From the NCBI GenBank assembly GCA_028696185.1, contig JAQVHL010000021.1, positions 1 to 40,062 of the forward strand: a DNA stretch of 40,062 nt, written 5' to 3'. Below are positions 22,330 through 26,387 of the stretch, in pieces. The first letter of the stretch is position 1, and each line of letters starts with the position of its first letter. The notes beneath the pieces were generated by a model that made no database searches, was not told the origin of the DNA, and saw only the letters and a list, made by a program, of their open reading frames with translations. Source of the stretch: Halothiobacillaceae bacterium (GTDB lineage Bacteria > Pseudomonadota > Gammaproteobacteria > Halothiobacillales > Halothiobacillaceae). Position numbers and translations under genes: made by a program.

Positions 22330-22665
22330 ATGCACATTACCGACGAAACCCTTACCGACGCCCAAGTCGTTCACGTCAGCGGACGCCTGGACAGCACCAC
22401 CTCCCCCCTGCTCGAACAATACCTGCTCAGCGTGGTGGAGTCCCACCCTCGCGTGATCGTCGATTTCACCCGTCTGGACTATATCTCCAGTGCCGGCTTG
22501 CGCGTGCTCCTGATGGCCGCCAAGAAAAGCCGTGCACGCTCGGGCGCCTTCGCCCTGTGTGCCCTCAAACCCGCACTGCGGGAAGTCTTCGAAATCAGTG
22601 GATTCCTGTCGATCATCGCGGTTCACCCGGATGCCGAAAGCGCCCGCCAGGCCTTTTCTTCCTGA
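22330..22665 (+). CDS. STAS-domain anti-sigma-factor antagonist
   Basis: Single STAS domain of 111 residues, of the SpoIIAA/RsbV type. The phospho-acceptor loop is DYISSAGLRVLL with Ser53/Ser54, and the VHVSGRLDSTTSPLLE strand-helix opening is typical. Such proteins are phosphorylated by a partner serine kinase and reactivated by a PP2C phosphatase. It is followed 51 bases later by a Na/Pi-cotransporter-family gene and then a PP2C phosphatase gene on the same strand, so a partner-switch unit is likely. No RsbW-type kinase gene is in the window. Confidence 0.92.
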   Translation: MHITDETLTDAQVVHVSGRLDSTTSPLLEQYLLSVVESHPRVIVDFTRLDYISSAGLRVLLMAAKKSRARSGAFALCALKPALREVFEISGFLSIIAVHPDAESARQAFSS

Positions 22666-22716
22666 ACATGAGCCGTCACCTCTTCCCCCCTTGCCAGCTT
22701 AAGGACGCTGCCTGAG

Positions 22717-24357
22717 ATGCTGGTCGATATCCTCGCCAGCCTGTTCGCGGGCCTGGGCATGTTCTTCATCGGCGTCAAACTGATCGGCGCCCATCTCAAA
22801 CAGATGACCGGCCGGCGTTTTCGCATGCTGGTCATGAAAGGTACGGCACATCCCGCCGCCGCCGCCCTGCTCGGTAGTCTGGCCGGCGCCATCACCCAGT
22901 CGACCAACGCCGTCGCGTTCATCATGATGAACCTGGCTACCGCCGGGCTGATCGAGGCAAGGCGTGCCATGCCTGTGGTTGGCTGGGCTAATGTCGGCAC
23001 CTCGGCGCTGGTCATGGTTGCCACCCTGGACATCCACCTTTTCGTGCTCTACCTGCTCGGCCTGGTGGGCATGGCCTACTATTTCAATATCGACAAATCC
23101 ACCCGCTACCGGCACATCGCCGGCGCGCTGCTGGGCATCAGCGTGCTGTTTTTGGGCCTGGAATTCATCAAAAACGGTGCCGCGCCGCTCAAGAGCATGG
23201 CGGAAGTCCGCGACTTCCTCGCCCTGTCCGGCCAGTCCTACGTGCTGCTGTTCCTTATCGGAGCGGTGCTCACCCTGCTTGCACAATCCTCAGCCACCGT
23301 CTCAGTGGTTGCCGTAGCGATGACCAGTGTCGGCCTGTTTACCATGGATCAGACCCTGATGGTCATCTATGGGGCCGGACTGGGTTCGGCCGCCAGCTTG
23401 TGGCTGCTGACTGCCAACCTGCGCGGCACCCCCAAACAGCTCGCGCTCTACCAGGGGCTGTACAAGCTCGTCGGGGTAGCGGCCATGCTCCTGCTCTTTG
23501 CCCTGGAAAACGGGCTGGACATTCCGCTCATCAAAGCGCTGATCCAGTGGTTATCGAACGACATCAGTGTGCAGGCGGCCTGGGTTTACCTGCTGTTCCA
23601 GCTCGTTTCCACCCTGCTGCTCGGGATCGCGGGGGAACGCGCCACCCGCCTGGTGGAACGTTTGTCGCCCCCCACGCAGGAGGAAACTCTCGCCCGACCC
23701 CAGTTCATCTATGAACAGGCCTTGGATGACCCCGACACCGCGCTCGATCTGGTGCGCAGCGAGCAACAGCGGCAACTCGGACACCTGCCCGACTACCTGG
23801 ACGAAGTTCGCGAGGAGGGTATCCATGCCACGCCCCGGCCCGTGTTGCATGGTGCGCTGATCTCGGTCAACCGCGAAATCGCCACTTTCATTACCGAACT
23901 GCTCGACCGCAACCGTGACCGGGACGACCTCAATCGCGTCATCCGCGCTCAGGCGCGCAACAGCTTGCTGAGCGACCTGCTCGACAGCTTGAATGACTAC
24001 ACCGACGCGCTGCGTTCGCTCACACCGGGAAGCCCCCTTCATGAGCGCGCCGCACGCCTGAGCGAGGCGTTGCACCTGATGCTCGTCACGCTGGCTGAAG
24101 CGCAGGCCAGCGGTGAGTCCACCGACCTGGATCTGCTCCTGGGCCTGACCGGGGACAAGGCAGAACTGATGGAGCGGCTACGGGCCGCCCCGCCTGCGCA
24201 TGAATCCTCCGGTGGGCATGCGATGGCAGCACGCCTTGCCGAACAGGCGGTTTTTTTCCATGCCACCGTTCTGTTCGAGCGCCTGGTCTGGCTCGTACGC
24301 CGCTACGGCCTGCAACTGCGTCCGGACCTGAACGCCACGCCTGAGTCCCGCCCGTGA
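22717..24357 (+). CDS. Na/Pi-cotransporter-family membrane protein with PhoU-like tail
   Basis: The 546-residue protein has an N-terminal membrane half with two inverted repeats marked by QSTNA (61-65) and QSSAT (190-194), the substrate motifs of the NptA/PNaS family. The first motif departs from the common QSSSA. The C-terminal half (about 330-540) is soluble, helical and PhoU-like. The predicted role is sodium-coupled phosphate (or other anion) transport at the inner membrane. Its end overlaps the GTG start of the PP2C gene by 4 bases (GTGA), so coupling is strong. Substrate is not established, and some family members act in signalling. Confidence 0.9.
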   Translation: MLVDILASLFAGLGMFFIGVKLIGAHLKQMTGRRFRMLVMKGTAHPAAAALLGSLAGAITQSTNAVAFIMMNLATAGLIEARRAMPVVGWANVGTSALVMVATLDIHLFVLYLLGLVGMAYYFNIDKSTRYRHIAGALLGISVLFLGLEFIKNGAAPLKSMAEVRDFLALSGQSYVLLFLIGAVLTLLAQSSATVSVVAVAMTSVGLFTMDQTLMVIYGAGLGSAASLWLLTANLRGTPKQLALYQGLYKLVGVAAMLLLFALENGLDIPLIKALIQWLSNDISVQAAWVYLLFQLVSTLLLGIAGERATRLVERLSPPTQEETLARPQFIYEQALDDPDTALDLVRSEQQRQLGHLPDYLDEVREEGIHATPRPVLHGALISVNREIATFITELLDRNRDRDDLNRVIRAQARNSLLSDLLDSLNDYTDALRSLTPGSPLHERAARLSEALHLMLVTLAEAQASGESTDLDLLLGLTGDKAELMERLRAAPPAHESSGGHAMAARLAEQAVFFHATVLFERLVWLVRRYGLQLRPDLNATPESRP

Positions 24358-26387
24358 ACGGCCCTTCGTTGCGCGCAAAATTCGCCGGCACCCATGCCCT
24401 GCTGCTGGCCCTGTCCACCCTGCTCATCACCCTCGTCTCGCAACATCTGGTCGATCGTGAACTGCTGCGCCAGAGCGAGACCGCCACGGCGAACGTGCAC
24501 CATCTAGTCGGCCAGTTCGTGCAAGCGGCCTACGACAAGCTGCAGGATGACCGCCAGACGGCGCTGGATACACGCCGCAACGAGCTGCGCCAGCTCTCGG
24601 GACTCGTGCGCACGACACTGGAAGAATTTCGTCGCCAGGTCGCCTGGGGGCGTCTGACACCCGCCCAGGCGCAGCAAGCCGCACTGGAACTGCTGCGCAA
24701 ACTCCGTTTCGGCAACCATGACTACTTCTTCGCCTACGACCGTGAGCTGACCGCCATCGCCCATCCCGACCCAAGCTTTGAAGGCCGCAACCTGCTCGAT
24801 TACCGGGACCCCGACGGCCGGCCTGTACTGCAGGACATCCGTCGCATCGCACTTGAGGAAGGCGAAGGCTTCCTCGTCTACCGATGGAAACGCCTGCAGG
24901 ACGAAGACGCACGGGAAAAACTCGGTTATGTCTTCCACGACGTTGCCTGGGACTGGATCCTCGGGACCGGCGTTTATATCGACGACATCGAAAAACAGAT
25001 GCACGAACGCCTGGCGCAAATGCGCGAACGCTTGCGCGTCATTCTGGAGGACGTCAGCGCCACCAGCGGCAGTGCCTTCGTTATCCTTGATCTTGCCGGC
25101 GAGCCGCTCATCGCTCCTGCAGCCAGCAAGAATGCCCTGCCGGAGACCGTGCTTCACGCACTGGCCCCCGATCTACTGCTTCATCTGCCCCATGAGGCCA
25201 ACCCACGCCCTCAACGCATCGAGCTGGAAGTTGCCGCCCCCGGTCGCGGGCAGGAACGCTGGCTTTTCCATGTCAGCCGCTTTACCCCGCTGGGCTGGGT
25301 CATCGTTTCCGCCCAACCCCTGGCCGCGCTGGAAGCACCAGGCGACGCTCTCGCCCTGCGCCAATTGCTCACCAACGGCTTGATCCTGCTTGTGGGACTA
25401 CTGCTCGCCTCAGTGCTGGTGCGCTGGATGCTGCGCCCGTTCGTGACGCTGGCCGAGCATGCCCGAGCCCTTCCCGAACATGACTTTGTCCTGCCCGTGG
25501 CACAACAGGACCGCCTGCGCGCACTGCGCGAGCGCTACCGTGACGAAGCCGGCCAACTGGCCGATGCCTTCCTGCGTCTGGAAGAAGCCCTGCAACAACA
25601 CCTGGACAGCCTGACCCGCACCACCGCCGCCAAGGAACGCATCGAGAGCGAGCTGCGCATCGCGCATGAAATCCAGATGGGCATCCTGCCCAAACTGTAT
25701 CCGGCCTTCCCGGACCGGCAGGAATTCGACATCTTTGCCACACTCACGCCAGCGCGCGAGGTGGGCGGCGATCTGTACGATTTTTTCTTCATTGACGAGC
25801 ATCGCTTTTGTTTCGTCATCGGCGATGTCTCGGGAAAAGGCGTGCCAGCGGCTTTCTTCATGGCCGTCACCAAAACCCTGTTCAAGGCCGTGGCCGAAGG
25901 GGAACAAACGCCCGGGCAGTGGCTCACCCGTGTCAACCGCGATCTTGCGACCGACAACGAAGCCTGCATGTTCGTCACCCTGTTCTGCGGTGTCCTCGAC
26001 ACCCGTGATGGTTGCATCGATTACGCCTGCGCGGGGCACAACCCACCGCTGATCCACGGTAAGGACAGCACGCTTCGTTGGGTGGACGTCCCACATCAGC
26101 CGGCCGCCGGCGCTATGGACGGCATCGAATACCAGACATGTCAGCTCCTGCTGGCGCAGGGCGAACGGCTGGTGATGTATACCGACGGCATCACCGAAGC
26201 CATGAATGCCACAGGTGCGCTGTATGGCGAGGCGCGCCTTACCTCTCGGCTCGCGCATACGCCCCCTGGCGACGCACGGGCATTGGCGCTTGCCCTGCTG
26301 GAAGACGTCCATACCCACGAAGCAGGCGCCGAACCCGCCGATGACCTTACCCTGATGGTTCTGTATTACCGCGGCCCCACGGCCTGA
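24354..26387 (+). CDS. Membrane PP2C (SpoIIE-type) serine phosphatase with Cache sensor and HAMP
   Basis: Predicted receptor phosphatase of 677 residues with a GTG start. It has a first membrane segment at about 11-28, then an extracytoplasmic Cache-like region (sCache_2 type, about 60-215, with FGNHDYFFAYD and GYVFHDVAWDWILGTGVY). A second membrane segment (about 337-360) leads to a HAMP domain, a linker coil (about 400-440) and a SpoIIE/PP2C domain (about 440-675). Metal-site motifs are REVGGDLYDFF (near 470), GDVSGKGVPAAFFMA (near 490) and PADDLTLMVLYY at the end. By family it would dephosphorylate a STAS antagonist, here very likely the product of 22330-22665. It overlaps draG tail to tail by 22 bases. 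Confidence 0.93.
   Translation: MNGPSLRAKFAGTHALLLALSTLLITLVSQHLVDRELLRQSETATANVHHLVGQFVQAAYDKLQDDRQTALDTRRNELRQLSGLVRTTLEEFRRQVAWGRLTPAQAQQAALELLRKLRFGNHDYFFAYDRELTAIAHPDPSFEGRNLLDYRDPDGRPVLQDIRRIALEEGEGFLVYRWKRLQDEDAREKLGYVFHDVAWDWILGTGVYIDDIEKQMHERLAQMRERLRVILEDVSATSGSAFVILDLAGEPLIAPAASKNALPETVLHALAPDLLLHLPHEANPRPQRIELEVAAPGRGQERWLFHVSRFTPLGWVIVSAQPLAALEAPGDALALRQLLTNGLILLVGLLLASVLVRWMLRPFVTLAEHARALPEHDFVLPVAQQDRLRALRERYRDEAGQLADAFLRLEEALQQHLDSLTRTTAAKERIESELRIAHEIQMGILPKLYPAFPDRQEFDIFATLTPAREVGGDLYDFFFIDEHRFCFVIGDVSGKGVPAAFFMAVTKTLFKAVAEGEQTPGQWLTRVNRDLATDNEACMFVTLFCGVLDTRDGCIDYACAGHNPPLIHGKDSTLRWVDVPHQPAAGAMDGIEYQTCQLLLAQGERLVMYTDGITEAMNATGALYGEARLTSRLAHTPPGDARALALALLEDVHTHEAGAEPADDLTLMVLYYRGPTA

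Follow-up and report, generated by a model that had tools for sequence, protein, structure and literature searches.

What does a bacterial partner switch control when the only output encoded beside it is a transporter? The question is raised by three genes in a 40,062-nucleotide stretch of DNA (hereafter the window; contig JAQVHL010000021.1, positions 1 to 40,062 of the forward strand) from the Halothiobacillaceae bacterium assembly GCA_028696185.1, in which a STAS protein, an NptA-type transporter (NPT) and a receptor phosphatase with Cache and PP2C (SpoIIE) domains are encoded side by side. The known targets of partner switches are mainly sigma factors and diguanylate cyclases. Conserved pairing with a transporter would widen their reach to membrane traffic, controlled directly, and would tie phosphorylation on serine to PhoU-like regulation and to transport of the phosphate type. 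Our preferred answer, to which we assign a probability of roughly one half, is that the trio forms one half of a partner switch serving specifically an NptA-type transporter whose tail has the PhoU fold, its kinase being supplied in trans from a second contig of the same genome (C74) and its STAS protein docking on the tail.

Partner-switch genes beside NPT genes

A profile of four NPT proteins, run against 84,980 species genomes, yielded 57 loci. Once loci from a search of the class were added and duplicates removed, 63 NPT genes, mostly from two phyla, were compared; the four-protein profile favours relatives with two tail motifs, so that others may have been missed. Of the 63, 32 have a STAS, PP2C or RsbW-type kinase gene no more than 3.5 kb away. 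The preliminary description of this DNA, which had called for such a survey, held that it would be refuted by STAS–PP2C pairs that always occur with a kinase and never with NptA genes; this refutation fails, as STAS, PP2C and kinase genes recur beside NPT in many lineages. Sequence no more than 1.5 kb from NPT (183 kb in all) holds 29 STAS genes and sequence more than 4.5 kb away (455 kb) holds 2, a density about 36 times higher beside NPT, and the corresponding counts are 22 against 2 for kinase genes and 22 against 4 for PP2C genes; the surveyed loci are related and these events are not independent, and P values overstate their independence. Serine occupies the column of the predicted phosphorylation site, Ser54 of the window STAS protein, in 36 of 36 aligned STAS proteins (34 encoded near NPT, together with those of the window and C74).

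In the NPT tree, switch-linked genes fall in Verrucomicrobiota, Xanthobacteraceae, Rhodopila, Burkholderiales and several gammaproteobacterial branches, spanning Verrucomicrobiota and the alpha-, beta- and gammaproteobacteria, and gene orders differ among them: porin, PstS-like protein, PP2C/kinase fusion, STAS and NPT in Burkholderiales; STAS, acetolactate decarboxylase, PP2C, NPT and kinase in L054 and L057; kinase, NPT and STAS in L090; STAS and NPT in L041, L089 and L091; and sensor, NPT, STAS and PP2C in L073 and L099. Operons with all parts adjacent, such as those of Duganella, Paucibacter and Paraburkholderia, offer ready test cases. Switch and transporter could share operons for the same nutrient response without any contact, and other envelope genes do accompany the module (porin, binding proteins, acetolactate decarboxylase, GPP34); we consider co-expression alone quite improbable because those partners vary by clade, whereas NPT and STAS, kinase or PP2C recur in differing gene orders.

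Genes of the module overlap in several loci (PP2C with NPT and NPT with kinase in L054, NPT with kinase in L057 and L066, STAS with NPT in L041). The kinase–NPT overlaps, of 4–22 bases, and the RsbW-like profile of the kinase would suit a mechanism in which free RsbW-type kinase inhibits the transporter by binding its PhoU-like tail and unphosphorylated STAS frees the transporter by sequestering the kinase, following the logic of SpoIIAB and RsbW. We consider this unlikely, since it is the STAS gene that adjoins NPT, with the kinase elsewhere, in L041, L073, L089, L091, L094, L099 and the window.

Further genes recur in these neighbourhoods. The alpha-acetolactate decarboxylase gene between STAS and PP2C lies at 2144-2962 in L057 and at 2019-2777 in L054. 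In NPT genomes of a gammaproteobacterium and of Verrucomicrobiota, genes of the Golgi phosphoprotein 3 family (GPP34; L040 10054-10704, L080 1625-2317, L135 4236-4898, L136 7653-8309) recur beside kinase–STAS pairs. Directly upstream of NPT, several loci encode a small membrane protein that carries the motif FKxQVQEWKNxLLRG and resembles the sensor of a chemoreceptor without output domain (L046 8318-8995, L042 7549-8265, L080 2384-3067, L073 8305-8970, L099 8305-8970, L095 8224-8973), even where no switch gene is nearby. In L077 (9601-11967), NPT overlaps by 4 bases the gene for a 788-residue protein whose C-terminal half is of the MFS type, followed by an ABC substrate-binding protein gene.

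The window trio and the transporter tail

The three open reading frames are consecutive on one strand, where the preliminary description had placed them (Table 1), and the GTG start of the PP2C gene at 24354 and the NPT end at 24357 give the 4-base overlap that it reported.

Table 1. Features of the window trio; positions count from the first letter of the window.
Feature	Position	Strand	Basis
STAS protein, 111 aa, anti-sigma-factor-antagonist type	22330..22665	+	Pfam STAS, NCBIfam ant_ant_sig, alignment
Ser54 codon, predicted phosphorylation site, motif YISSAGL	22489..22491	+	aligns with SpoIIAA phospho-serine
NptA-type transporter (NPT), 546 aa	22717..24357	+	Na_Pi_cotrans; AlphaFold2 model
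PhoU-fold cytoplasmic tail, NPT residues 334-540	23716..24336	+	structure match to 4q25
Membrane receptor phosphatase, 677 aa, Cache sensor and PP2C (SpoIIE)	24354..26387	+	Pfam, motifs, orthologs
dCache_2/sCache_2 sensor region of the PP2C protein	24465..25316	+	Pfam, NCBIfam, profile matches
PP2C/SpoIIE catalytic domain	25794..26366	+	Pfam

Pfam and NCBIfam confirm the domains. The STAS domain is matched by Pfam (1.8e-19) and, above cut-off, by NCBIfam ant_ant_sig, and alignment with SpoIIAA-type STAS proteins assigns Ser54 as the phospho-serine site that had been proposed. NPT has two Na_Pi_cotrans repeats (Pfam, 4.9e-37) and an above-cut-off match to NCBIfam Na_Pi_symport. The receptor phosphatase matches dCache_2 (2.9e-39), sCache_2 (5.6e-37) and SpoIIE/PP2C (1.2e-47), its catalytic motifs are intact (GGDLYD, DVSGKG, DGITEA, ADDLT), and the NPT operons of L054 and L057 encode full-length PP2C orthologs of it (48%). 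The Cache and PP2C parts of the Cache–HAMP–PP2C architecture first suggested are thus present, but Pfam detects no HAMP domain in the window protein; the L057 ortholog has a sub-threshold HAMP match.

An AlphaFold2 model of NPT built from 49 homologs has a mean predicted local distance difference test score of 91.9, and the NPT profile matches solved SLC34 weakly. The helical tail aligns with Pseudomonas aeruginosa PhoU (4q25) with a VIA-align Z of 16.5 over 195 residues, and the seven best chains in a structure search are all PhoU or PhoU-like, followed by ALMT channels at Z of about 12-13. Scores below about 13 may carry little meaning where helical bundles are compared, a level that the PhoU match exceeds. 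The PhoU-like tail of the preliminary description therefore holds by fold but not by sequence, Pfam and sequence searches having found no PhoU signature in it. A QS motif is present in both NPT repeats; because the second-repeat motif varies across the family (QSS, HSA), the substrate is uncertain, and the predicted function is sodium-dependent transport of phosphate or possibly of another anion.

The trio is flanked upstream by a gene with a molybdopterin-binding domain and downstream by a convergent ADP-ribosylglycohydrolase gene. A search for a sigma-70-like promoter near the trio found none, which is uninformative because 0.7 would be expected by chance. Among 26 genomes of the same taxonomic order, no relatives of NPT or of the window PP2C were found, so the trio is not a trait that the family has inherited; no NPT relatives were found on plasmids.

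A kinase encoded on contig C74

The open reading frames of the window cluster include no RsbW-type kinase, as had been noted at the outset, and the genome search proposed there found one stand-alone kinase of this type, on C74. It lies in an operon of porin, PstS-like protein, PP2C, kinase and STAS genes that has no NPT gene yet is orthologous, gene by gene, to the Burkholderiales operon ending in NPT. Identities to the Burkholderiales NPT operons are 66-75% for the kinase (or kinase domain), 54-63% for STAS, about 50-58% for the PP2C sensor region, mostly 48-58% for the porin and 51-67% for the PstS-like protein. The kinase is RsbW-like by profile, with a HATPase_c_2 domain, and falls within the NPT-linked Burkholderiales group of a quick tree drawn from 139 columns, with Shimodaira–Hasegawa-like approximate likelihood ratio test supports of 99 for the wider set and 86-89 inside it. 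The suggestion that the system might be completed from elsewhere is supported by this orthology to kinases of NPT-containing operons.

The STAS proteins of the window and C74 are 51% identical over 91 residues. They agree at 14 of 18 residues around the phospho-serine helix; in REVFEISGFL they share 11 of 13. Judged by sequence, the genome carries pieces of two predicted NPT-type modules, one without a kinase (the window) and one without a transporter (C74), and the system here looks split over these two loci. The simplest reading is that the C74 kinase may serve both STAS proteins. The window locus could also be a decayed copy that has lost its kinase gene, leaving STAS permanently unphosphorylated, and it does lack both the kinase and the acetolactate decarboxylase gene present in L054 and L057. 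We regard decay as highly improbable because the three open reading frames are intact, catalytic residues are conserved, there would be no point in keeping a PP2C whose substrate is never phosphorylated and an orthologous kinase is present in the genome.

Of 20 genomes searched by way of their NPT loci, most lacking a kinase there, 18 have an RsbW-type kinase (E <= 1e-8), several in a separate kinase–STAS locus, against 34 of 369 genomes in the class sample at a stricter E <= 1e-15, a comparison that is rough because cut-offs and taxa differ. Within the class sample, 6 of 9 NPT genomes have a kinase (P = 2.7e-5).

Contamination is a less likely source of C74 in view of its single-copy thiL (49-60% identical to those of the family) and similar GC content. 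The C74 PP2C has no close match among the 369 genomes of the class sample, and the porin model shows an ordinary porin fold with no clear indication of a substrate. Elsewhere in the same genome, C112 (locus L022 5010-6611) encodes a 533-residue fusion of an RsbW-type ATPase domain and a GNAT acetyltransferase domain.

Mechanism, input signal and related systems

Under the preferred reading, the Cache–PP2C protein would sense a periplasmic ligand, probably a small organic anion, and dephosphorylate Ser54 of the STAS protein, which the RsbW-type kinase of the C74 operon, acting in trans, would rephosphorylate; two sensors may then feed one transporter through the two loci. Unphosphorylated STAS would dock on the helical PhoU-like tail and change transport, much as unphosphorylated SiaC binds the helical stalk of the diguanylate cyclase SiaD and activates it (PMC8457831). 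Binding to the tail is plausible by analogy with SiaC–SiaD and with MlaB, the STAS-only protein of the ABC transporter MlaFEDB, which acts on its transporter (PMC7367683). Because the C-terminal PhoU domain of Staphylococcus aureus NptA modulates PhoPR and possibly import (PMC13170248), the NPT tail is also a plausible control point. The sequences show the gene content, the recurring association, the intact catalytic motifs, the invariant serine, the orthology of the C74 operon to operons with NPT and, by structure model, the PhoU fold of the tail; we infer the cross-talk between window and C74, the choice of STAS over the kinase as the protein that docks on the tail, the substrate and the direction of control.

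NPT and its tail might instead be the input, reporting transport or phosphate status to an output elsewhere, such as the Pho two-component system or an unlinked target. The effect of the S. aureus PhoU domain on PhoPR activity (PMC13170248) would fit, as would the output-less MCP-like sensor proteins encoded just upstream of NPT in L042, L046, L073, L080, L095, L099 and others, but the neighbourhoods examined have no sigma factor, diguanylate cyclase or histidine kinase as a recurrent companion of the module, and we think such a role distinctly unlikely.

Direct control of transport through STAS is the leading mechanism, although unproven, and several points weigh against it. The transporter can exist without a local switch, since partner-switch genes are absent from the 3.5 kb around 31 of the 63 NPT homologs (Thioalkalivibrio, Bordetella, Roseomonas and others); the association of NPT with a kinase in the class sample weakens to P = 0.056 once the four genomes that supplied query kinases are left out; and a STAS and a PP2C are encoded alongside the C74 kinase, which may thus not serve the window STAS.

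As to the input signal, the window PP2C sensor region matches MCP-type Cache domains of chemoreceptors, and the phosphate-dependent phosphorylation envisaged in the preliminary description is not supported by a sensor of this type. sCache_2 domains tend to bind small carboxylates, and the acetolactate decarboxylase gene of L054 and L057 would weakly fit a pyruvate-related signal. On the input side, the one hint of phosphate comes from the C74 PstS-like protein, a single PstS-like lobe (half-domain).

The arrangement resembles several known systems in part. With SiaABCD of P. aeruginosa (PP2C SiaA, kinase SiaB, STAS-like SiaC, diguanylate cyclase SiaD) it shares a membrane-sensor PP2C and a STAS protein encoded with the output, but the output here is a transporter, and an RsbW-type kinase (HATPase_c_2) takes the place of SiaB; the SiaB-type kinase and diguanylate cyclase absent from the window locus are on C34 of the same genome, where a diguanylate cyclase, a SiaB-like protein (DUF6272), a STAS-like protein and a PP2C are encoded in a row (locus L023 1388-4816). 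RsbU/RsbV/RsbW and SpoIIE/SpoIIAA/SpoIIAB draw on the same PP2C, STAS and RsbW-type kinase families with conserved motifs, whereas NPT loci have no sigma factor and NPT is the constant neighbour. STAS proteins or domains likewise act on transporters in MlaB–MlaF and SulP/SLC26, but here STAS has a phosphorylation serine, a phosphatase and a kinase, and the transporter is of the Na/Pi family. S. aureus NptA also joins a Na/Pi transporter domain to a cytoplasmic PhoU-fold regulator (PMC13170248); the NPT tail differs in being unmatched by Pfam PhoU and linked to a serine-phosphorylation switch.

No description of a link between such a switch and a transporter was found in the literature searched, whose coverage mostly excluded subscription papers, and bacterial signalling modules with a transporter as their constant partner are widespread yet apparently undescribed. 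That it represents a partner-switch family controlling transporters post-translationally, through STAS (or kinase) on a PhoU-like tail and with several sensors, such as the Cache–PP2C and the porin and PstS-like set, converging on one transporter from separate loci, we put forward tentatively, at slightly worse than even odds. In Thioalkalivibrio sp. AKL19 (L137 576-6665), the gene for a family 3 solute-binding protein fused to a glycine-transporter domain has PP2C, STAS and RsbW-type kinase genes as neighbours, perhaps a further case of a partner switch linked to a transporter.

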